Part shown: in pieces, positions 640 through 63,285 of the stretch
Layout: every line of letters begins with the position of its first letter
Numbering within the stretch: the first letter of the stretch is position 1
NCBI GenBank assembly: GCA_034401795.1
Contig: CM067373.1
Span: 36,243,443 to 36,307,442, forward strand
Length of the DNA: 64,000 nt
Origin: Chaetoderma sp. LZ-2023a
Taxonomy: Eukaryota > Mollusca > Caudofoveata > Chaetodermatida > Chaetodermatidae
Direction: 5' to 3'
Translations under genes and position numbers: made by a program
The notes under the pieces: generated by a model
Told to the model about the DNA's origin: nothing
What the model saw: the letters and a program-made list of their open reading frames with translations, nothing else
The model's database searches: none

Positions 640-890
640 TAGTACTACTGGTATTTGGAAGTGAGCACTCAATAGAGGGATATCTAGCTACACCGCACTG
701 ATTTTTATCTAAGCTCCGCCCACTTTGTGCTGGGGTTTGAATCAATTTTATCACCTATCAACAATGCATTATAAGAATCTCAATTTCAAGGTAACTCTAT
801 GGGTAAATTGTTGAATATTTTGTAACCAATTTAATTGGAAGCAGTTGCTACTGCTTAAGGCAGCAACAGCTTCCAGTCTAATTAGTGGTA
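640..890 (+). repeat. Hairpin MITE fragment, B/E-type flank, with palindrome at about 812-888
   Basis: The left part (about 670-760) carries the TATCTAAGCTCCGCCCA segment seen in other copies near 10480 and 51130. It is followed by a stem whose arms read GTTGAATATTTTG...TTGGAAGC and GCTTCCAG...AATTAG, around a loop containing TTAAGGCAGCAAC. This is one member of the recurrent hairpin family described under findings. Confidence 0.7.
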
Positions 891-896
891 AAGAAA

Positions 897-987
897 TTGG
901 TGTACATTTTCCAACAATTTTGGGGGATGATGTTGCTGTCTACGGCAGAAACATCATCCACCAAATCTGTTGGAAAATGAACACCAG
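897..987. repeat. Second adjacent palindrome with unrelated arms
   Basis: The left arm contains GGTGTACATTTTCCAACA and GGATGATGTT. The right arm contains AACATCATCC and TGTTGGAAAATGAACACC. The arms are complementary with a few mismatches around a loop near TGTCTACGGCAG. It lies directly beside the 812-888 hairpin and has the same organisation, but its stem sequence is different. Confidence 0.75.
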
Positions 988-2939: not shown

Positions 2940-3338
2940 GCCAATGCATTATATTCTTTATTATGTAATACTCATCTTGTTGAATATTTTTTAACTAATT
3001 TGACGGGAAGGCAGCAACAACTTCCCGTCAAATTAGTTTTAAAATATTCAACAGCTTACCTGTATGGTTGCTTTTGCACCACATTGCCAAACTATAGCCG
3101 GCACCTCTATGACTGTGCATATATACCGAGGCAGACACACTAGGCTTTTTCTGATTGGTTGAAAAGTAAATCATGACAGCCATCATAGGGTGTAGAAATA
3201 TACCAACATTTAGCTACTAAAGCCTGAATATCTTTCTTTAGCAGGATGATAAAAAGCTTAAAATTACCTGCATAGTTTATTTGTGCCATATTAGATCATC
3301 TGAATAGCTATCAAGAGATGAGGTTAGTTATCCTTTAA

Positions 3339-3669: not shown

Positions 3670-4118
3670 GTGGATGCAAGAATGTTCTAAAAGTGGATAT
3701 ATGCGATGATGCTGAGAGGAAAAGGGCATGAGTGTAGTCCTGAAAAATATTTTGTAATTAAAAATGTAACTTTCCTGTATGGAGGAAATGTAACCGGCTC
3801 CGAATCTTGCCCACCCACCCCACCCTACCATGTCATTATCCTGAGTCTGGAAAAAAGTATAGAACTTTAATAAACCCATACCAGGCCTTGAAATGCATGG
3901 AAAATTCCACAAGTTGCTTCCCTAGTTTGGAAAAATTATGGAAAATTGAAATATTGTCAATTGTGATTCTAACTTTTTCATAGAATGTAGATAATATTTG
4001 AAGTATTACAGATCTCGACAATTAATTAAAGGTTATGACATTGTTCTGCAATATCTTAGCATTTTCAACTGTCTGCTGATTATAGACATCATGAAATAGG
4101 CCGGGAAATTGATCAATG
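3339..4118. other. Intergenic, includes hairpin-MITE tail and (CT)n
   Basis: Around 3420-3500 there is a tail segment (GATTATGATGTCAGATACTTG, then GAGTGACAG) shared with the E-type repeats at 10450 and 51112. The rest apart from the CT microsatellite looks unique. No exon can be supported. Confidence 0.5.
3586..3666. repeat. (CT)n microsatellite
   Basis: Nearly pure CT dinucleotide over about 75 bases, with one TATC interruption near 3598. Open frames crossing it (an RERERE peptide on the minus strand) are artefacts of the repeat. Confidence 0.97.
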
Positions 4119-5826
4119 GACCTTTCCAGTTTTAGCTATGCCCTGCCCATCTCTATCTAAGCTCCACTCACACCTCGCTCATGTTGGGATTGATCGATCC
4201 CTGAACTCCCTGACTATCAATTTTGAGAAAAATATACAGGTAAGCTGTTAAATATTTTGAAACTAATTTGATTGGGTGTTGGTGCTGCCTCTGACAGCAA
4301 CAGCGCCCATTCAAATTAGATTCAAAATATTCAACAGAATGTATTAAAGACTTACAATTCGTACAACAAGGCTTAGTCCGTCTCCAATTAAGCGTTTGTG
4401 CAGTGTTCCTCATTTGCGTCCTTTTGCGCGTATAGGTGCATAAAATCTGTCCTGGGATGCATAAAGTTGGACCCCAAGCGTCCCAACGGACGCACAGAAA
4501 ATTTGGTACAAAAATTGGTGCATCGCAAGTTTCTAATGTTTTTCCGGGAATTGTGTATGAATTGCGGCCATTTGTATTTGTCCAGATAATTATCGACAAT
4601 TTTTGTCAATTGGTTCCCGTTTGAAGACTATTCTAAAGTAGTTAGCATGAGGAACCAGCTACTACTCAGGACTTCGTCAGTGATTCTGATCAATTTTTTT
4701 CCGCTCTTCATGCAATACCGAGAATCAGGAACTGGGAACTCATTATACTGAACACGGAACTCGTGACCTACTCGTTAAGTCTCATCGCTAACTCAGAATT
4801 TGTCACAAGATGCATATTAAAAGAACCTGTTAGAGTTAGAATAACATGATTTTATCATGACCACTAGATATTTTACTGTTTGACAGCATCTAGAATATAG
4901 GGCATGTTTTTTACGCGTCGGCGAGTGTGCCATTCTTTTGTTGTAGATCATATATTTTTCCTGTAAATCTCTATTCGGCAGATCACGCTGTTTTGGTAGT
5001 TTGTAAAAAGTAAAATGTGAAAGCAACCATTTATGAAAGACCAAACGTCCTCAGGGAATTCCCGTAGCCCAATAATATGTGAAACTCTACAAACAAATGT
5101 TGCGGCACAACACTGTATTAACCCTCTGGCTACTATGGAACTACAAAAAGATAGATATTTTATCGTCGTGAGCAGTAATGCCAAGTTACTATTTGCTTAA
5201 AGAGTGAGATACCCGACAAGTTAACTTCATTTCATTTTGGAAATTCCTCTCATATACTAGAGCACATCGCAAACGAGTAAAACAGAAAGGTATGATAAAA
5301 TTTCAATGTATAAATTTACAATTATTTATCCAACCTTATTCATATGACATAGCTTTGTTGAGTAATATAGTTAAAACAGTGATTTTTATTTTAAAACATG
5401 ATATTGTAATGTATAGGGATATAGTGTTCTATGATGTGAAACTATATCACTGTTTGAATATAAATCACTATTTTAACACTATATTACTAGCTTAATAAAT
5501 ATACTATATTATTCAGCAGTCCTATGAACGTGATTCGATTAAATAATCGTTTTATTATACATTATCGTCTTGTTTTAGGAGTCACAGTTTACTTCATCGA
5601 AATTTCCCCCCCCCCCCTGCGATTTCAGCTGGGACCCCCAGATTTTGGCTTGGGACATCCAGATTTTGGCTTGGGACATCCAAATTTCAAAGTAAGGGGT
5701 TCCATGGGGAACACTGCATTCGTGGCATATTTATCTACGCCATTCATGGAATCATTGATTATGACGTCATCCTACACGTCACATACTTGATTATGTCGTG
5801 ATACGATGGATGGATAATTGGAAAAG
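4119..5826 (+). repeat. MITE-B copy, split by a hAT-like insertion
   Basis: The left part (4119-4400) starts with CCTTTCCAGTTTTAGCTATG and contains the palindrome at about 4245-4337. The right part (5717-5826) carries CATTGATTATGACGTCATCC and ends near TGGATAATTGGAAAAGT. Both parts line up in order with the unbroken copy at 10021-10398. Confidence 0.78.
4401..5716. mobile_element. hAT-like non-autonomous element, about 1.3 kb
   Basis: The ends are inverted: left CAGTGTTCCTCAT, right ATGGGGAACACTG (12 of 13 positions match after complementing). The flanking octamers CGTTTGTG and CATTCGTG are a slightly diverged 8-bp target duplication, and the unbroken MITE-B copy shows a single TTCGTG at this point. 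CAG-starting termini with 8-bp duplications are typical of hAT elements. No transposase-like coding sequence is visible inside. Internal features include an inverted pair near 5360-5390 and 5463-5490. Confidence 0.65.
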
Positions 5827-5999: not shown

Positions 6000-6238
6000 T
6001 TAACCCTTTAAAACCCATATAAGCCAAAAATGGCCTCTGTAGTCATCTTGAGAAATGTCCATTTGCAGACCGAGAGAAGACTCTTTTTGAATATTTACCA
6101 CTGGAATGACTGGCTCGATAACCGAGCCAGTCATTCCAGTGGTAAATTTTCAAAAATAGTCTTCTCTTGGTCTGCAAATGGATATTTTCTATCAGAAAAT
6201 TGAAATTATCTTGAACAATTCGTGGGGTTAAAGGGCTA
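6000..6238. repeat. MITE-D copy with long palindrome
   Basis: Flanked by TTAACCCTTTAA-like ends. The central palindrome (about 6058-6180) has arms of nearly 60 bases running from CCATTTGCAGACC to GAATGACTGGCTCG on the left and back from CGAGCCAGTCATTCC to GGTCTGCAAATGG on the right, with an ATAAC loop. Related copies lie at 34623, 35405, 36088, 48786, 49303, 57236, 62200 and 62925. Confidence 0.85.
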
Positions 6239-9911: not shown

Positions 9912-10020
9912 ATTTAATGAGGTGAAATTCTCATTATACCGCATGAAAGTTGAGGTATATATCAATCACTTTGTATGCGTGTCCATCTAATCTGCATAAT
10001 CCAGATCAGTTTAGCAATGA

Positions 10021-10398
10021 ACCTTTCCAGTTTTAGCTATACCCCGTCCATCTCTAGCTAAGCTCCACCCACACCTCACTTGTGTTAGGATCGATCGATT
10101 TCTGTACTCACTATCAATTTTATAGTTAAGCTGTTTAATATTTTGGAACTAATTTGACTGGGTGCTGCCTATGGCAGCGACAGCACCCAGTCAAATTAGT
10201 TTCAAAATGTTCAGCAGCATATTTATTGAATAGTAAATATTTAAATACAATTCGTACAACAACACTTAGTCTGTCACGAATTATGTGTTTCGTGACATAC
10301 TTATCTATGTCATTCATGACATCATTGATTATGATGTCATTCTACACGTCACATAGTTGATTATGGCATCATATGATGGATGGATAAACTGGAAAGGT
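10021..10398 (+). mobile_element. MITE-B, complete copy with 13-bp perfect TIRs
   Basis: The left terminus ACCTTTCCAGTTT and right terminus AAACTGGAAAGGT are exact inverted complements. Length is 378 bp. The internal palindrome (about 10128-10215) has stems GACTGGGTGCTG/CAGCACCCAGTC. The right third contains two palindromic TCATGACAT/ATGATGTCAT-type motifs. This is the reference copy for family B in the window. Confidence 0.85.
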
Positions 10399-10434
10399 CT
10401 GTTGTCTCATTACAGTCTGTCATCCACCTAGACA

Positions 10435-10840: not shown

Positions 10841-10975
10841 TTGTACACCAAGAGTCTTTGGTTAGAATCCTGTCACCTGAAGGGCCACAAAATGGTGAAT
10901 GCAATCATGGAGTCGATGAGTGAGATTTGTGTTTTAATACTCCGTTAATTAAGTTACCGTAATGTCACATAATGC

Positions 10976-11350
10976 GCCTTTCCAGTTTTAGCTATGCCCC
11001 GCCCATCACTAGCTAAGCTCCACCCACACCTCGATCATGTTGGGATCGATCGATCTCTGAACTCCCTGACTATTAATTTGTAGAAAACTATACAGATAAA
11101 TTGTTGAATATTTTGAAACTAATTTGACTGGTTGCCTATGACAGCAACAGTTCCCAGTCAAATTAGTTTCAAAATATTCAACAGCATGTTTATTAAATAG
11201 TAGTGACATACAATTTGTCAGACTATTAAGAGTTAAAGACAGGCATAATAAAATCATTTATGATGTAATAATTATGATGTCATCCTACACAGTGCTTAAC
11301 CGAGTATGGCATCATATGACATCAAATCATCGATGGATACTCTGGAAAGA
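10976..11350 (+). mobile_element. MITE-B copy flanked by a 27-bp direct repeat
   Basis: It starts CCTTTCCAGTTTTAGC and ends CTCTGGAAAGA. The palindrome lies at about 11098-11182. Immediately outside, AATTAAGTTACCGTAAT followed by (G/A)TCACATAAT is present on both sides (about 10947-10974 and 11353-11379), with one mismatch. Confidence 0.75.
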
Positions 11351-11397
11351 TGAATTAAGTTACCGTAATATCACATAATTAAATATTATGGTGTTTT

Positions 11398-16418: not shown

Positions 16419-18080
16419 TATACACCTGTGCAAAAGTTAAGCACCAGCAAAAACAAAGAATGTAGAAACATGATGGTACAACTAGGCTGCCATACTTTTT
16501 GTCCCCGCGTTAGCTGACATAATTCCAAGTACGAAATGCACATGCATGCATGACTTCACGCCGCTTGATGTCCGTGCGTGGCGGGAAACAGCACACGTGT
16601 TCAGTTATGTAAAAGTCCAGTTTGAGGTGTAGAACATTACATACAGATTTAGGCGACAAGATTAGGAATTTTGTGTTCATGACCGTGGTTTATTTGTACA
16701 GAGAGAATTAGCTCTTGATTGTGAACCGCTATGGCAAGACGAAGGTTAAGTGATCGTGTGAAATGGCAAATCATAGGCATGCATACCACTGGTATGTCAT
16801 GCAGAGAGATTGGCAGACAGCTGAACATTAACCATACTGTAATCAGTCGTTTGATTGCAAAACATGGGCAAACTAACGAGGTGAAGGGCAGGCCTAGATC
16901 TGGAAGACCGAAGAAGACTACTGCCCGTGATGATCGAGCCCTAGTACGCCTTGTTAGGAGATCTCCATTCACCAACAGCAGAGTGCTCAGCCAGCAATGG
17001 GAAACGCGCAATAGAGTGTCAATGTCTACCGTCAAAAGGAGACTGTATGCTGCTGGCATGAAAGCTAGGAGACCTGTCAGACGTCCTCTCTTCACTGCAC
17101 ACCACAAAGAGGAGCGTCTGAGGTGGTGCAACGAAAGAAGACACTGGAACACGAGATCCTGGAGACGGGTACACTGGTCCGATGAAAGTCGGTTCCTGCT
17201 TCATGCCACAGATGGTCGAACTCGTGTATGGAGGTCCAGACGCACGGCGTACGACCAACGTAACATCATGGAAGAAGTTCCATTTGGTGGAGGTTCCGTT
17301 ATGATAGGGGGGTGCATCTCATTTGATTGTAAGCTGGATCTGTTGACTGTACCTGGAACACTAAATGGACAAAGATATCAAGATTCCATACTGGATAGAG
17401 TTGTGGTCCCTCATTTTGTAAATCATGCACCTGTAACCCACCCTATATTCATGGATGACAACGCCCGACCACATCGTGCTAGAGCTGTGCATGCATACCT
17501 CCGCCAGAATGCCATCGAAACCCTACCATGGCCAGCAAGGAGCCCTGACATGAACCCTATTGAGCATATCTGGGACATTCTGGGAAACATGGTGAGAAGG
17601 AGGGATCCTCCTGTGCAGAACCTACAGGAATTAACAGACGCACTCCATCTTGAATGGCAACGAATACCACAATGGCGTATCAGTCGGTTGGTGACCAGCA
17701 TGAGACGTCGTGTCCAGGCCGTCATCCAGGCACAAGGTGGATATACCCGGTATTAATAATGACAGTCTCAAACTCGTGCACAGATGTTAAACTTCGTTTT
17801 CAGACACCATTAATGACAATCTAGCCACGTGTGTCAACTGTAGGGCAATAGTTGTCAGTTGTGTCACCGTAACCATATTCAGGCCTCGTTTTCAAGTTCA
17901 AACAAAAACATAGTGTTTCCCCACCATCATAATCAGCATTCCTCTAGTTGCATTATTACCTCTTGCACTAAGATGGATGGGTAGATAAATGTTTATGCTA
18001 TTGCTTTCTTCATAGCACATGAATATACCCTCGCATGTGCGTAAAAATAGGGTGGTGCTTAACCTTTGCACAGGTGTATA
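16419..18080 (+). mobile_element. Tc1-type DNA transposon, structurally complete
   Basis: The termini TACACCTGTGCAAAAGTTAA, then GCACCA (from 16421), and the complement of TGGTGCTTAACC, then TTTGCACAGGTGTA (to 18078), match at 25 of 26 positions. TA dinucleotides sit at both edges, as expected for the TA-targeting Tc1/mariner superfamily. The single open reading frame inside covers a full transposase. The inverted repeats are short, unlike the long ones of the second Tc1 copy at 52618-54301, so the two belong to different families. Confidence 0.9.
16731..17756 (+). CDS. Tc1-type DD34E transposase, open frame of 341 aa
   Basis: In the family, the enzyme binds the transposon ends and cuts and joins DNA at TA sites. 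Visible parts: an N-terminal helix-turn-helix (residues about 8-45, with SCREIGRQLNINHTVISRLI), a GRPRSGRPKK linker (53-62), a second helix-turn-helix region (about 64-115), and an RNase-H-like catalytic core with D151 in HWSDESRF, D243 in MDDNARPH and E278 in SPDMNPIEHIWD. Exactly 34 residues separate the last two acidic residues. The glycine-rich PFGGGSVM loop lies at 184-191. Length matches the usual 340 or so. The ATG at 16731 follows about 310 bases of leader after the left terminal repeat. All three catalytic residues are present and no stop interrupts the frame, so the copy could be recent or active. Activity is inference. Confidence 0.93.
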   Translation: MARRRLSDRVKWQIIGMHTTGMSCREIGRQLNINHTVISRLIAKHGQTNEVKGRPRSGRPKKTTARDDRALVRLVRRSPFTNSRVLSQQWETRNRVSMSTVKRRLYAAGMKARRPVRRPLFTAHHKEERLRWCNERRHWNTRSWRRVHWSDESRFLLHATDGRTRVWRSRRTAYDQRNIMEEVPFGGGSVMIGGCISFDCKLDLLTVPGTLNGQRYQDSILDRVVVPHFVNHAPVTHPIFMDDNARPHRARAVHAYLRQNAIETLPWPARSPDMNPIEHIWDILGNMVRRRDPPVQNLQELTDALHLEWQRIPQWRISRLVTSMRRRVQAVIQAQGGYTRY

Positions 18081-20523: not shown

Positions 20524-21130
20524 TTAAAGGGATCCTAATCTCATCTCCCCTGTTGTATTGCACCGATATATTATGGTATATAGATTCAATATCCTTCATA
20601 TCCTGTCACATTCCCTTATCGGTATCACAACCATCTGCTTTGTAATATCGAGTAAATGTTGAACAGTGATCTCCACCGTTTTGTTACCTCTAGCGATAGT
20701 GTGTGATGTCGTGTAAGTGCCAATGCATTACATCCTTTATTATTTAATAATCATCTTGTTCACTATTTTGAAACTAATTTGATTGGAAGTTGTTGCTGCC
20801 TAAGGCAGCAACAACTTCCAGTCAAATTAGTTTCAAAATATTCAACAGCTTACCTGTATGATTGCTTTTATCCCGCATTGTCAAGCTATAGATGGCACCT
20901 CTATGGGTGCGCGCATATATACCAAGGCAGACACGCTAGGTTTTTTCGAATTGGTTGAAAAGTAAATCATGACAGCCATCATAGGTTGTAGAAATGTATC
21001 ATGATTTAGCTACTTACGCCTGCATGTCTTTGCCGGGATGATAAAAAGCTTAAAATACCATGCATAGTTTATGAGTGGCCTATTAGATCATATGTTTAGA
21101 TATCATGAGATGAGGTTAGTTATCCTTTAA
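20524..21130 (+). mobile_element. MITE-A, uninterrupted 607-bp copy
   Basis: Ends TTAAAGGGATCCTAATCTCA and TGAGATGAGGTTAGTTATCC, then TTTAA, are inverted repeats with TTAA at both edges. The central palindrome (about 20757-20848) has the stem TTGGAAGTTGTTGCTGCC facing GGCAGCAACAACTTCC around a TAA loop. This copy contains the undisturbed CCAATGCATTACATCC site that the Penelope element used in the sister copy at 1035-3338. Confidence 0.88.
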
Positions 21131-25800: not shown

Positions 25801-28800
25801 GGAATCCTGAGAGTAATGGGATTTTAAGAGTAATAGGATCGTGACAATAACGGGATTGTGGGAGTAATGGGATCGTTGGAATAATGGTATTGTGTGAATA
25901 ATAGGATTGTGGGACTAATGGGATCGTGAGAGCAATGTGATTGGGTGAGTAATGGGATCGTGAGAGCAATGTGATTGTGGGACTAATGGGATCGTGAGAG
26001 CAATGTGATTGGGTGAGTAATGGGATTGTAGGAGTAATGTGACCGTGTAAATAATGTGATCTTTGGAGTAACGGGACTGATGGGATCGCGAGAGTAATTG
26101 GATCGTGGGAATAATGGGATCATCCAGGTAATGGGCATGAGAGCAATGGGATCGTTAGAGTAATATGATCACGAGAGTAATGTGATTGTAAGAGTAATAG
26201 CATTGTGAGATTAATGGGAATAAAGATTGTGGGAGTAATGTGATAGTGAGAATAAAGGGATTGTGGGAGTAAAGGGATCGTGGGAGTAATTGTATTATGT
26301 GAGTAATGGGATCGTGAGAATAAAGCGATTGTGGGAGTAGTGTGATTAATGGGATTGTGGGAATAATGGGACCGTGAGAGAAATGGGATCATGCGAGTAA
26401 TTGCGTTGTGAGAGTAATAGGATCGTGAGAGTAATAAGGGTAATGGTATTGTAAGCGTAATGGAATCGTGTGAGTAATCGGATCGTGTGATTGTAAGAGT
26501 AATGGCATTGTGAGATTAATGGGATTGTGGGAATACACGGATTGTGGAAGTAATGATATTATGAGAGTAATGTGATCATGAGAGTAATGGGGTTGTAAAT
26601 ATAATGGGATCGTGGGAATAAAGGGATTGTTGGAGTAATGGGATCATGAGAGCAATGGGATTGTGAGAGTAATGGGACAGATTAATGGGATTTTGGGAGT
26701 AATGGGATCGTGGGAATAACGGGATTGTGGGAGTAATGGGATCCTGGGAATAAAGCGATTGTGGGAGTAATTGGATTGTAGGAGTAATGAGATCGTGAGA
26801 ATAACGCGATTGTAGGAGTAGATTGATTAATGGGATTGTGGGAATAATGGGATCATGAGAAGTAATGGCATCGTGAGAGTGATACTCAATTACATCGTAA
26901 AAATCGCGATTTTAAAAATAAATCGGACTTCACGATTAAATCGAAAAATCGCGCAAGCCTAAGTGATAGGATCGTAAGAGTAATAAGGGTAATGGGATTG
27001 TAAGCGTAGTGGGTTCGTATGCGTAATGGGATCCTGTGATTGTAAGAGTAATGGGATTGTGAGATTAATGGGATTGTGGGAATACACGGATTGTGGAAGT
27101 AATGATATTATGAGAGTAATGGGTTGTAAAGGTAATGGGATCGTGGGAATAAAGGGATTGTTGGAGTAATGGGATCATGAGAGTAATGGGATTGTGAGAG
27201 TAATGAGATCGTGAGATTAATGGGATTGTGAGATCAATGGAATTGTGAGATTAATGGGATTATAAGAGTAATGGAATTGTGAGATTAATGGTAATGTGAG
27301 ATTAATGCGATTGTGGGAGTAATGGGATCGTGGGAATAATGGGATTATGAGAGTAATGGGATCATGAGACTAACAGGATCGTGAGAGTAATAGGATTGTG
27401 AGATTAATGTGATCGCGGGAATAATGGAATTGTTGGAATAATAGGACTGTGGGAGTAATGGGATCGTAAGAGTAATGTTATTGTGTGAGTAATTTGATCG
27501 TGGCTGTAATGGGATTGTGGGAGTAACAGGATCGTGAGAGTAATTGGATTGTAAGAGTAATATGCTTGTGAGATTAATGTGATCGCGGGAATAATGGAAT
27601 TGTTGGAATAATAGGACTGTGGGAGTAATGGGATCGTAAGAGTAATGTTATTGTGTGAGTAATTTGATCGTAAGAGTAATGGGATTGTGGGAGTAACTGG
27701 ATCGTGGGAGATATGTGACCATGTAAATAGTGGGATCATGGGACCGCAAGTGTAAGGAGATTATTACAGTACTGGGATCATGAGAGTAATGGATCGTTAG
27801 AGTAATGGGATCATGAGAGTAATGGGATTGCAAGAGTAATAAGAATGTGGGAATAAGGAGATTGTGGGAATAATTGATTCGTGGAAATAAAGGGATTGTG
27901 GGCGTTCGTGATTGTTATGGCATCACTGGAGTAATGGATTGGGAATACACGGATTGTGGGAGTAATGAGAGTAATGATATCATGAGAGTAATGGGATTGT
28001 GGGAATAAAGGGATTGTTGGTGGAATGGGATCATGGTAGTAAGGAATCATGAGAGTAATGTGATCGTGAGAGTTATGGGATCATGAGAGTAATGGGATCG
28101 TAAGAGTAATGGGATTTTAAGCGTAATTGGATCGTGAGAGTGTAAGAGTAATGGGATTGTCAGATTAATGGGATTGTGGGAATAGCACAGATTGTGGGAG
28201 TAATGGGATCATGAGAGTAATGAGATTGTAAGAGTAATGCGATCGTGGGAATAAAGGGATTGTTGGAGTAATGGGATCATGATAGTAAGGAATCATGAGA
28301 GTAATCGGATCGTGAGAGTAATGGGATCATGAGAGTAATGGGATCATGAGTAATAAAATTATAAAAGTAATATGATTTTGAGATTAATGGGATTGTGGAA
28401 ATAAAGTGATTGGGGGAGTAATGGGATGGTGGGAATAATGGGATTGTGGAATGAGATTGTGGGGATATTGGGATCGTCAGAGTAATAGGATTGTGGTGAA
28501 CACTGGGATCGTGGGTATATTGGGATTGTGGGAGTAATGGGATCATGGAGTAATGTGATCGTGGGAGTATTGCGAGAGAAATGGGGTCGTTAGCGTAATG
28601 GAACCAAGGGAGTAATGGGATCGTGTGCATAAAGGGTTCGTGAGAGTTATGGGATCACTGGAGTAATGGGATCTTGGGAGTGACGGCTTCGTGAGAGTAA
28701 TGGGATCGTGGGAGTTAATAGGATCACATGAGTAATGGGATCGTGGGAGTAATCGGATAGTGGGAGTAATGGGATCATGAGAGTAATTGGATCACGGGTG

Positions 28801-34622: not shown

Positions 34623-34855
34623 TTAACCCTTTAATGGTCATGATTTTTCAGTAAAACAAAAATTTCATGTTATTTCTATTTGCAGACCAAGATATGGAGC
34701 ATTTTGAAAATGTATCACTGGAATGACTGGCTCGATTATCGAGCCAGTCATTCCAGTGGTAAATTTTCAAAAATACTCATGCTGGCCTGCAAATCGACAT
34801 TCCTCAAGGCCACTGCAGAGGCAGGTTTTCGCTGGTTTGACCATTAAAGGGCTAA
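34623..34855. repeat. MITE-D copy nested in MR copy 4
   Basis: It starts TTAACCCTTTAATGGTC and ends GACCATTAAAGGGCTAA. The palindrome core CACTGGAATGACTGGCTCGA faces TCGAGCCAGTCATTCCAGTG around a TTA loop, a perfect inner stem. Confidence 0.85.
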
Positions 34856-47689: not shown

Positions 47690-47975
47690 GATGTTAGAAT
47701 GACGTCATAATGAATTCATACCGTAGTTGAATCCGTCACGAACGCTTAATTGATGACGGACTAAGAGTTGTTATCCGAATTGTATGTCTTTACTATTTAA
47801 TACACAGGCTGTTAAATATTTTGAAACTAATTTAACTGGCGCTATGGCAGCAACAGCACCCAGTCAAATTAGTTTCAAAATATTCAACAACTTACCTGTA
47901 TAGATTTCTGGAAATTGATGGTCAGGGAGTTCATGGATCGATGGATCCCAACACGGGCGAAGTTTCCATTGTCAC
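47690..47975 (-). repeat. MITE-B copy, reverse orientation
   Basis: In reverse complement the order of family-B parts is present: AACACGGGCGA-type left segment, hairpin, CTTAGTCCGTCATC, then AATTAAGCGTTCGTGACG. The hairpin (about 47808-47890) keeps long outer arms GTTAAATATTTTGAAACTAA and TTAGTTTCAAAATATTCAAC. This copy also shows the undisturbed site used by the hAT-like element at 4401. Confidence 0.75.
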
Positions 47976-49302: not shown

Positions 49303-49535
49303 TGAACCCGTTAATTCTCATATCAGCCAAAAACGGCTTCTGCAGTGGTCTTGAGAAATATCCATTTGCAGATCAAGAGACGACTATTTTTGAAAATTTA
49401 CAACTGGAATGACTGGCTCGATAACCGAGCCAGTCATTCTAATGGTCAATTATCAAAAAAACATTCTTCTCTGCAAATGGACATTTTCTGAGAAGATTAG
49501 AATTTTCTTGAAAAAATTTAAGGGTTAAATGGTTA
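49303..49535. repeat. MITE-D copy upstream of the omega-loop gene
   Basis: GAACCCGTTAATTCTCATAT to AAGGGTTAAATGGTTAACC. The core ACTGGAATGACTGGCTCGAT faces CGAGCCAGTCATTCTAATGG. Confidence 0.82.
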
Positions 49536-49873: not shown

Positions 49874-49948
49874 AGAGTTCTTAGGGCGTGTATAAATTTG
49901 TTCTTAACATGTGTCTGTTTTTTAATTTTAACTTATTTACGTACTGCG

Positions 49949-49957
49949 CTGTGCAGA
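49949..49957 (+). promoter_or_regulatory. Possible splice acceptor before the omega-loop exon
   Basis: CTGTGCAG|AGG, preceded by a T-rich stretch (CTGTTTTTTAATTTTAAC). It would place 36 non-coding bases before the preferred ATG, or join an upstream exon in frame. Confidence 0.3.
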
Positions 49958-49992
49958 GGAATATTCAGACGAATGCGACTGTGTGTGCGACA

Positions 49993-50871
49993 ATGTGTGA
50001 ACGTGAAACAGAACAGAGCGTTAGTCCGACAGAAACTAACGAGCAACAAACAGGTGACACCACTACGTCACCAATTAGTGTCAACTCTGACAGTGACATA
50101 CGCGAAAGATTTCCATATTCTAATCTCGTGACAGACTTGTCTTCGCGCGTGCCATTGCGCATGAGACAATTACCCGCGTCATTCTGGCAGGAACCACACT
50201 ACCAGCAACCGTACAAACAGATGAACTCACTTATTTATGTCCGTCCGTTAGATTCACCGTCTTGGCATACCGACATTGTACCATTCATCGCAGACATACA
50301 CCCGCCGGATACAAATATTACTGCGCGGACATCCTACACTGATGATATAGCTATTGATAAGTCTAAGGAACCTACACTTTCATTGCATCGTAGGTACGAA
50401 GAACTTCGCACTCGAATGGCCACAATGGATTATCTGTTCTACGTGCACAGTGTCAGTGCCAGCCAGTCAGCGCCATCAACATCAGCCTCGTCATTATATT
50501 CTAATCTGTCGCCGTCACCACTGTCAACATCAGGATGCACAATACCGCCAGTAAGCGCTTATTGGGATTTGCCGCATCACAGCTCGCATACATGCCTGGG
50601 ATGTAACGCCATGCCCGTTTCACACTTGCGCATCCCATCCAGGAACACGTCAACGATGTCCCATGGATGTAGCTCCACACGCGCTCCACAAATGCCCGAG
50701 GGGTGGAGCATGTCTCCGTCCTTACCCTCCCTTTATCCATACTATTCACAGCAGTTACGCCATTTATCTAATAGTAGGCGCCATCAATCGTCATCATTGT
50801 CATCGTCGTCTACATCGCGACTGAAACATCTGTCATATCTATCACCACGCTATCATCCGTTTCGCGTGTGA
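49993..50871 (+). CDS. Serine-rich protein with YAP/FAM181-type TEAD-binding omega-loop motif
   Basis: The open frame runs 292 codons from the ATG at 49993, or 327 from an earlier ATG at 49888. I prefer the later one because the extra residues are hydrophobic and AT-rich and are followed by CTGTGCAG (ending 49956), which looks like a splice acceptor. This may therefore be a last exon. Residues 52-68 of the shorter form read RVPLRMRQLPASFWQEP. From memory, the omega-loop of YAP is VPMRLRKLPDSFFKPPE and vertebrate FAM181A has VPMRKRQLPASFWEEP. In those proteins the loop binds TEAD transcription factors. After the motif come a tyrosine/proline-rich stretch, LHRRYEELRTRMATMDYLF and a long Ser/Pro/His-rich tail, probably disordered. 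The FAM181 N-terminal block (ALDKSAPCRRSVDHRK) is not seen and may be in an upstream exon or absent. There is no WW domain, so it is not YAP itself. Third-position GC and CpG use are higher than in surrounding DNA. A nuclear role with TEAD is inferred. Confidence 0.72.
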   Translation: MCERETEQSVSPTETNEQQTGDTTTSPISVNSDSDIRERFPYSNLVTDLSSRVPLRMRQLPASFWQEPHYQQPYKQMNSLIYVRPLDSPSWHTDIVPFIADIHPPDTNITARTSYTDDIAIDKSKEPTLSLHRRYEELRTRMATMDYLFYVHSVSASQSAPSTSASSLYSNLSPSPLSTSGCTIPPVSAYWDLPHHSSHTCLGCNAMPVSHLRIPSRNTSTMSHGCSSTRAPQMPEGWSMSPSLPSLYPYYSQQLRHLSNSRRHQSSSLSSSSTSRLKHLSYLSPRYHPFRV

Positions 50872-50892: not shown

Positions 50893-51084
50893 CTTAACCC
50901 TTTCACAGACAAATCCCTGAAAAGTTTATTCTGTTGAATATATTGAAAGTAATTTGCCCGGAAGCCGTTGATGCCGAAGGCAGCAACGGCTTCCAATCAA
51001 AATGATTTCAAAATATTCAAGGGTTTTTCTGTCTGGTTGCTTTCAAAGATTAGACAAGGGGAGTTCATCGGTGAAAGGATTAAA
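50893..51084. mobile_element. MITE-C copy downstream of the gene
   Basis: Inverted ends TTAACCCTTTCACAGACAAA and TTCATCGGTGAAAGGATTAA, about 190 bp. The hairpin (about 50933-51022) has the stem CCGGAAGCCGTTGATGCC facing GGCAGCAACGGCTTCC, around a GAA loop. It begins about 20 bases after the stop codon, so it may lie in the gene's 3' UTR. Confidence 0.8.
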
Positions 51085-51111: not shown

Positions 51112-51625
51112 GAATAGAGGATCCATATCTAGCTAAGCGCCGCCCATTTCTAGTAATGCTCCGCCCATTTATATCTATGACCCGCCCATTTCTAGCCAAG
51201 CTCCGCCCATTTCTAGCTATGCTCCACTCATTTCTAGCTATGTTCCGCCCATTTCTAGCTATGCTCCGCCCATTTCCAGCTAAGCGTGACAGAATCTCCG
51301 CCTACTTTTACCCGTGTTAGAATCGATTTGAACCTGTGAAACCTGAATTTTCAGTATCGAATTTCCAGGGTAACTATACAGGTAAGCTGTTGCATATTTT
51401 GAAACCAATTTCACTGTATGGCAGCAACAACTCCCAGTTAAATTAGTTTCAAAATATTCAATAGAATGTTTTTTTAATTCGTCAAAGACAAGGTCATACA
51501 CTTTTCTGATGGACTTTTCCATTTTCATAACGGAGCTACGTCAATTTGGTTGTGGCGTTAGCTAACACGTGATGTATTCGATTATGACGTCAGCTACTTG
51601 AGTGACAGGTATGATCCATCTTTTG
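51112..51625 (+). repeat. Type-E hairpin repeat with expanded GC-box block
   Basis: About eight copies of a 21-bp unit like GCTCCGCCCATTTCTAGCTA (51120-51290), then the hairpin (about 51385-51465) and the tail GATTATGACGTCAGCTACTT. Other copies in the window have only one or two of the 21-bp units. Confidence 0.75.
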
Positions 51626-51715: not shown

Positions 51716-51805
51716 GATGTTGAATATTTTGAAGCTAATTTGACAAGAACTGGCTGTTGCCTTCAACAGCTCCCCGTCTAAATATCTTTTAAATATTCAA
51801 CAGGA
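51716..51805. repeat. Hairpin-family copy
   Basis: Outer arms GTTGAATATTTTGAAGCTAA and TTTTAAATATTCAAC. Inner bases GCTGTTGCC/CAACAGCTCC. Confidence 0.65.
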
Positions 51806-54959: not shown

Positions 54960-55153
54960 CTTAACCCCTTCACCAATGAACTTCCATATCTCATTTTCAA
55001 CACTATCACACAGGAAGTCTTGAATATGTTGAAATTAATTTAACTGGAAGAGATTGTTGCTTTCAGTCAAATTAATTTCAAAATATTCAACAGAATAAGT
55101 TCTATATCATAAGGAATATAATTTTTCAGGGATATGTCTGTGAAATGGTTAAG
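54960..55153. mobile_element. MITE-C copy
   Basis: Ends TTAACCCCTTCACCAATGAA and TCTGTGAAATGGTTAAG are inverted. The hairpin at about 55018-55095 is shortened, with loop TGCTTTCAG. A half-hairpin follows at 55155-55213. Confidence 0.75.
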
Positions 55154-62199: not shown

Positions 62200-62393
62200 T
62201 TAACACTAAATTCTGCAGTATTCTTGAGAAATGTCCATTTGCAGACCATGAGATGATCATTTTGGAAAATTTACCACTGGAATAACTGACTCGATAACCG
62301 AGCCAGTCATTCCAGTAATACATTTTCAAAAGTAGTCTTCTCTGGCACGGCAAATTGGCATTTTCTAAGAGAAAGTTGAAATTAGAGGGTTAA
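62200..62393. repeat. MITE-D copy
   Basis: TTAACACTAAATTCTGCAGT to TTAGAGGGTTAAC. The core ACTGGAATAACTGACTCGAT faces CGAGCCAGTCATTCCAGT with two mismatches. Confidence 0.8.
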
Positions 62394-62920: not shown

Positions 62921-63088
62921 GAAACGTAAATGTATGGGTCAATAGAGGACTTTTCTGAAAAATTACGACCAGAATAAATGGCTCAATAACAGAGTTAGTC
63001 ATTCAACTTGTAAATTTCCACAAATCATCTTCTCTTGGTCTGTAAGTTAGCTTTTCTTGACCAGTCTATCAGGACCATTACAGGATTA
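62921..63088. repeat. MITE-D body, eroded
   Basis: TCTTGAGAAACGTAAATG through CAGAATAAATGGCTCAATAA against GAGTTAGTCATTC, to TACAGGATTAAACC. Confidence 0.7.
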
Positions 63089-63285
63089 AACCTTTCACTG
63101 ATAAATTCCTGAAAAAGTACATTCTTCACTATATAATAAAACTTACTCTGTTGAATATTTTGAAATTAATTCGACTTAAAGCCGTTGCTGCCTTCCAGTC
63201 AACTTTATTTCAAAATATTCAACAGTTTTCGTGTATGGCTGCCTTGAAGACGAGATATGGGGAATTTATCGCTGAAAGGGCTAAG
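63088..63285. mobile_element. MITE-C copy
   Basis: Inverted ends AACCTTTCACTGATAAATTC and GAATTTATCGCTGAAAGGGC. The hairpin at about 63148-63225 has outer arms GTTGAATATTTTGAAATTAA and ATTTCAAAATATTCAAC, and an inner left stem AAGCCGTTGCTGCC whose partner is deleted. Confidence 0.8.

Follow-up and report, generated by a model that had tools for sequence, protein, structure and literature searches.

The locus at positions 20524 to 21130 of the 64,000-nucleotide stretch of Chaetoderma sp. LZ-2023a DNA analysed here (the window) raises the question of why a hairpin recurs with two arms that agree inside a copy and differ between copies. The earlier note had proposed selection for the fold or correction of one arm by the other. 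The hairpin at 20757-20848 folded into a single stem closed by a 3-nt loop (-59.5 kcal/mol, z -15.5), and an intact half arm of about 45 nt reads CTGTTGAATATTTTGAAACTAATTTGAC-TGG.....TG-TTGCTGCC before the 3-nt loop. A profile search with nhmmer detected 24 hairpin places in the window and all 15 positions listed in the note fell among them, confirming that the hairpin recurs. The outer arms are shared as had been described, with 30 occurrences in the window at up to three mismatches and none in 100 shuffles. The loop assignment did not hold: GGCAGCAAC, found 9 times in the window as compared to 0.33 expected, is part of the stem in intact copies (TTGCTGCC/GGCAGCAA flanking the 3-nt loop) and resembles a loop where the left inner arm is deleted, for example in the copies at 2978 and 47809. 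The hairpins and host elements classified in the window were:

20524..21130, + strand: family B host element of 607 bp that contains the hairpin at 20757-20848, ends TTAAAGGGATCCTAATCTCATCT .. AGATGAGGTTAGTTATCCTTTAA, inverted, with TTAA at both
20757..20848, + strand: hairpin of 92 bp, a near-perfect palindrome with the loop TAA and the subfamily B inner stem GGAAGTTG/CAACTTCC
50894..51083, + strand: family D MITE of 190 bp, TTAACCCTTTCAC .. GTGAAAGGATTAA, with the hairpin 50931-51020 within it
54961..55152, - strand: family D MITE of 192 bp, hairpin 55019-55093, inner arm partly deleted
63086..63284, + strand: family D MITE of 199 bp, hairpin 63148-63225, inner arm partly deleted, right end CTAA
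10971..11356, - strand: family A element of 386 bp, ends AATTCATCTTTCCAG .. CTGGAAAGGCGCATT, hairpin 11102-11184
10016..10403, - strand: family A element of 388 bp, hairpin 10131-10217
4245..4337, - strand: family A hairpin, with a family A end at 4115
47809..47889, + strand: family A hairpin, left inner arm deleted
51387..51464, - strand: family A hairpin, inner arm deleted
51718..51803, - strand: A-like hairpin of doubtful class, decayed
2978..3054, + strand: family B hairpin, left inner arm deleted
898..987, + strand: f2 hairpin, a homologous palindrome with different outer arms (GGTGTACATTTTCCAACA..), both arms one nucleotide shorter, TTAA on the right, left end not seen
809..891, - strand: D-like hairpin of doubtful class that adjoins the f2 hairpin

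To place these copies in the genome we applied the profile search to 20 samples of 10 kb drawn from contigs C1-C4 and C6, and 44 places were found in 15 of the 20 samples, a density of about 1 per 4.5 kb. An exact scan of the 2.44 Gb genome (2,753 contigs, C1-C17 each longer than 70 Mb) returned 30,091 intact cores and none for the reversed pattern; the pattern left 7 inner positions per arm free and is self-reverse-complementary, so that each place appears on both strands. A 26-nt outer-arm pattern matched the genome 50,729 + 51,148 = 101,877 times. Four arm and core strings were absent from the main text of the searched literature. The left outer arm of the 20757-20848 hairpin carries a rare GTTCAC variant, which we considered as a templated mutation confined to one arm. 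This idea was rejected, as the search query itself held the variant and the search skipped common words. The variant was present in 37 of 41 copies in query-biased loci, always in one arm and in bins A, B and D, and in 3 of 73 sample copies. Genome-wide there are 61 occurrences of the exact 26-nt C-type arm bearing GTTCAC, and independent changes predict about 65 such arms in about 82,000 C-type arms (an estimate, with 19 T-type arms of 100). A hand count over 100 listed arms gave 4 and 2 cases of the single steps to GTTCAC and 0 of the double step.

The hairpin is very probably the shared palindromic core of several related MITE-like families with different ends. The host elements are short, putatively non-coding DNA elements; those of families D, B and A have inverted ends and the copy number is very high (30,091 cores), as in MITEs. 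Sorting 100 places by the flanks outside the hairpin gave 40 A, 7 B and 10 D copies, with 21 doubtful and 22 unsorted, and conservation extended beyond the hairpin borders. Family A elements are about 380-420 bp long with ends AAT[TG][CG]ACCTTTCCAG .. CTGGAAAGGTCCATT, and the family D copies of the window span 190-199 bp between TTAACCCTTTCAC .. GTGAAAGGGTTAA or near variants. Family B was aligned from 8 copies. Within B the core sits off-centre; in D and A it is close to the middle. The relatives f2 and f3 lie between other TTAA ends, TTAACCCTT..AAGGGTTAA in f2 and, in f3, TTAA but with CTGT and CCAT. The core is thus common to families with different terminal repeats, in part by ascertainment, the core having been the query. 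We also considered family A as a Helitron or a SINE and rejected both, as its ends are inverted and 20 of 21 end pairs were without a long target repeat (the 21 pairs represent about 16 distinct elements by hand count, some paired twice). The element at 10971-11356 is flanked by a 20-bp direct repeat with 1 mismatch, and a second A end pair has a 4-bp repeat that scored just above the 95% level of a mismatched-flank control.

The ends were then compared for a TTAAC[CT]-type motif. Of 9 D copies, 4 had the motif on both sides, 5 on the left and 6 on the right, and 0 of 250 random places had it on both sides; it was also present on both sides in 1 of 2 f2 and 1 of 2 f3 copies as compared to 0 to 0.8% of random places. 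None of 32 A copies had it on both sides. Judged by their ends, D, f2 and f3 resemble short MITEs that insert at TTAA and would be mobilised in trans by TTAA-specific transposases; D and f2 are probably piggyBac-like. Families A and B are larger elements bearing the same core.

Long hairpins are common here, an observation from this genome alone. A de novo scan of the window and 30 samples (314 kb) kept 45 inverted repeats with 42-bp arms, and by hand count 24 of these overlap places of the hairpin described above (one of them, L022:5333, touches only at its edge), 15 are like a second hairpin family, H2, and 6 are others. H2 (AGAAGACTATTTTTGAAAATTTACCACTGGAATGACTGGCTCG..) has 40 places in the 314 kb, and 6 of 29 are flanked by TTAAC[CT]-type motifs left and right. 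Similarity of its arms to those of the first hairpin was not clear, with p from 0.0045 to 0.27 by pair. The H2 hairpins lie at:

window 6075-6165, 34702-34778, 49378-49469 and 62251-62341, and L023:1072-1161

Several other features were noted in the window and samples. An open frame of 341 aa at 16731-17756 with Tc3-type HTH and DDE_3 domains marks a Tc1/mariner-like transposase. Reverse transcriptase and GIY-YIG matches lie close together at 1347-1892 and 2472-2870, an arrangement that we take to be that of Penelope-like elements. A 327-aa open frame at 49888-50871 contains a TEAD-interacting omega loop (TEADIR3, E 2.9e-8) and is presumably FAM181-like. Minisatellite-like repeats were seen at about 26500-27700 of the window and in samples L021 and L028, and in the two samples they are open over hundreds of codons.

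The arms of a copy agree with each other more than with the arms of other copies, as the earlier note had stated. Over 8 inner positions the arms differed by a mean of 1.58 within a copy as compared to 2.69 when permuted (the lowest of 5,000 permutations was 2.12), measured in the first 50 listed of the 30,091 cores, all on contig C1. When copies of all families were taken together paired change was strong: 88 copies had 124 double-changed cells as compared to 58.9 when shuffled, with none of 500 shuffles as high, and the 47 window and sample copies, families mixed, had 85 as compared to 36.9. In a hand-chosen alignment of 13 copies (3 A, 3 B, 3 D, 2 f3 and 2 f2) 18 of 45 pairs were changed on both sides, against 8.6 shuffled and 2-7 in slid controls, with a covariation score of 0.253 against 0.109. 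The paired inner-stem change that had been claimed is therefore real between families and was not recovered within family A as defined by its flanks, where 30 copies had 9 double-changed cells as compared to 8.5 shuffled (238 of 500 shuffles as high) and 85.2% of cells paired as compared to 85.4%; covariation within a clonal family, looked for in these 30 copies of family A, did not appear. The covariation lies between clonal subfamilies and arises from mixing families.

The inner stems themselves fell into few classes, the clonal case in which the note had itself allowed that its reading would fail. On a class list drawn up by the analyst, the first 50 listed cores comprised 28 GGGCGCTG, 5 GGAAGCTG, 5 GAAAGTCG, 5 GGAAGCCA, 4 GGGAGCTG (ties and decayed copies), 2 GGAAGTTG and 1 GGAAGCCG. 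The pair CTGGGTGCTG/CAGCACCCAG, given in the note as an example, is that of family A, whose inner stem contains a CpG and a founder mismatch. A narrower pattern matched 856 places, and in the first 50 listed the sixth position was T on both sides in 7 and T on one side in 8 (hand count).

Between founders, both arms changed together. Majority arms of copies sorted by flanks, 40 A, 6 B and 10 D with two D positions ambiguous, showed 3 paired differences between A and B, 3 between A and D and 1 between B and D; the sole one-sided difference was at position 1 (B), in addition to a C/T mismatch at position 33 inside A. This mismatch was found in 16 of 23 loop-oriented genome copies among the first 50 listed cores. 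In all 6 of the f3 copies fetched (from 40 listed places), both arms differ from B by substitutions at positions 19, 20, 31, 41 and 44, and those at 41 and 44 are paired C-to-G changes. The f2 arm aligned to the A and B arms with scores of 43-45, where the best of 2,000 shuffles reached 26-28. The alignment has a gap of one nucleotide, identically placed in the two arms. The f2 consensus, built from 12 sequences of which 11 are of the L026 kind, differs between its arms at three positions. The f2 search returned 39 places besides the query at 89-91% on one strand and 26 rows at 76-81% on the other, an asymmetry that fits these three arm mismatches. The pairing of founders is real and needs a cause, so both selection and arm copying survive for active lineages. 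The fixed founder mismatches, one in A and three in the f2 subfamily, show that the upkeep of pairing is loose.

To follow the arms after insertion we compared them within family A, taking for the covariation counts copies with 35 or more of the 45 letters in each arm. Leaving out the CpG positions 33-34, there were 4 double-changed cells as compared to 5.5 shuffled, and in the 18 copies from the window and samples only there were 3 as compared to 2.7. In 51 best-match A copies, 28 of them from a genome search biased toward its query, the arm-arm mismatch was 0.147 as compared to 0.154 expected under independent decay, and 7 identical double changes were counted as compared to 5.3 permuted (p 0.29). 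Of the first 50 listed cores on C1, 28 were nearest A and carried 22 one-sided and 0 identical two-sided changes over six free positions, the founder mismatch left out; one further core, tied in class sorting and so counted elsewhere, carried T in both arms at the CpG. Within family A the arms of landed copies mutate independently, and neither the 30-copy nor the 51-copy test pointed to selection that keeps pairs, or to correction of one arm by the other, in landed A copies. Identical double changes were in excess in the best-match bins B (9 as compared to 2.2, p 0.0035) and D (11 as compared to 3.8, p 0.003), bins that are mixtures and that take several of their double changes from f2 or other odd copies (for example window:899, L026:9798, L014:597 and L020:8064). 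The pair ACGGGAAG/CTTCCCGT of the copy at 2978, also among the note's examples, does have T to G in both arms at one position of the stem; it is a single unexplained case, in a copy whose inner deletion places it below the letter limit of the covariation counts. As the arms descend from founders and, in family A, decay independently after landing, no ongoing upkeep of single copies is needed.

The hairpin is nevertheless less diverged than the rest of family A. Among elements with at least 60 aligned hairpin letters, divergence from the A consensus was 0.112 in the hairpin as compared to 0.202 and 0.147 in the outer parts for those found by the left outer part (20 of 29), and 0.094 as compared to 0.195 and 0.144 for those found by the right outer part (27 of 34). 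Divergence of the near flanks was between 0.111 and 0.150 in both searches. The same trend was seen in another A set, with 0.079 in the arms as compared to 0.121 in the near flanks when variable arm columns were dropped. The 60-letter requirement, founder variation and CpG sites in the outer parts may contribute to this difference, as may some constraint on the sequence of the core. The lower divergence does not restore pairing, because mismatches between the A arms are about as frequent as the divergence of the arms would lead one to expect.

Together these data make it likely that clonal amplification of palindromic founders, with arm-independent decay, explains the paired look. A few near-perfect palindromic founder elements would have been copied many times, giving the subfamilies told apart by flanks and inner stem; the arms of landed copies would then mutate independently of each other, as shown for A, and one window that mixes copies from different founders would give the appearance of paired change. 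The alternative that template switching or gene conversion keeps the palindromes of landed copies matched is highly unlikely. Arms do agree more within copies than between them, yeast provides a documented case of template switching at inverted repeats (PMC8604942), small excesses appear in bins B and D, and one A copy (L040) has an inverted loop together with T at 33 in both arms, as such an event could leave; the lower hairpin divergence in A raises this alternative slightly. It is opposed by the arm-arm mismatch in A, which matches independent decay, by the double changes in A, which are not in excess, and by the rarity of loop inversion, seen in one of the 24 flank-sorted A copies whose loop reads ATA or TAT and in none of 10 more. 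Independent insertion of the palindrome into each larger element is also very unlikely. The hosts A, B, D, f2 and f3 do differ in their ends, but about 20-25 bp on either side of the hairpin are recognisably alike across A, B and D, which argues that the core and its near flanks travelled together.

Under clonal amplification the pairing of the founders would come about in one of two ways: a folded core could aid spread so that mostly paired founders amplify, or one arm could occasionally be copied from the other during replication or gap repair in an active lineage. Selection for the RNA or DNA fold of founders, as a hairpin or cruciform aiding amplification or as a small-RNA precursor, is a good possibility if not a probable one. 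It agrees with the two-sided changes across five families in the 13 chosen copies, well above the slid controls, with a core shared by hosts whose ends differ, and with a hairpin less diverged than the outer parts of A. However, A, the most numerous class of the 50 listed cores, was amplified with its C/T mismatch, the f2 subfamily carries three mismatches, the paired one-nucleotide deletion of f2 would need two matching deletions, and no Rfam match at gathering score was found in the window. Arm copying restricted to the founder lineage, by fold-back synthesis or a template switch during transposition-linked gap repair, would produce paired changes in bursts, and we give this reading just short of an even chance. 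The mechanism is known elsewhere (PMC8604942), and we lean slightly toward it because f2 has many paired substitutions and a same-place deletion of one nucleotide in both arms, and likewise because of the paired C-to-G changes at 41 and 44 of f3. Mismatches that persisted through mass amplification indicate that such copying was infrequent, and no intermediate was caught. The persisting founder mismatches show that neither selection nor arm copying was strict. The proposals of the earlier note thus fall away for landed A copies, where no excess was seen, and both stand as candidates for the founder lineages. More speculatively, and on balance doubtful, new MITE families may be founded when a decayed arm of an old core is copied over the other arm, an event that would re-perfect the palindrome in one step and leave many paired changes; the palindrome and not the ends would then be the heritable heart of the clan, moving between hosts with different ends.

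Among known systems, PALTTAA-type elements of nematodes are palindromic non-autonomous DNA repeats with TTAA. By that general description their palindrome spans the element, whereas here it is an internal core. The closest precedent is found in the CMITEs of Acropora corals, piggyBac-like MITEs with CC[C/T]T-type ends and an internal region more conserved between families than the terminal repeats, for which the authors suspect a role in transposition while naming ascertainment as a partial cause (PMC2872659). The elements described here are similar in that D and f2 have TTAACCCT ends and the core is shared while the ends differ, and ascertainment applies to them as well. They differ from CMITEs in the palindromic nature of the core, 92 bp long and near-perfect, and in the paired change of its arms from one family to the next; the CMITE paper uses neither the word hairpin nor the term secondary structure in its main text (PMC2872659). 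Three hairpin matches follow one another over about 410 bp at L039:18-430, which resembles the tandem arrays described for CMITEs. In yeast, template switching makes the arms of inverted repeats identical and can invert the spacer, and loop inversion accompanies it (PMC8604942); arm homogenisation of this type left no sign in landed A copies and is possible in founders. The T2-MITE/Kolobok elements of Xenopus form a long-lived family of MITEs, described in a paper where the word TTAA appears 23 times (PMC6004289).

These results demonstrate that clonal transposon subfamilies can produce strong covariation that withstands shuffling, and that the signal can vanish once copies are sorted on sequence lying outside the hairpin, a control needed in covariation tests on repeats. 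The 30,091 intact cores and about 100,000 outer-arm matches are a large natural data set on the upkeep of palindromes, by selection or by arm copying, and these families add a palindromic case to the MITEs whose core outlasts their ends.
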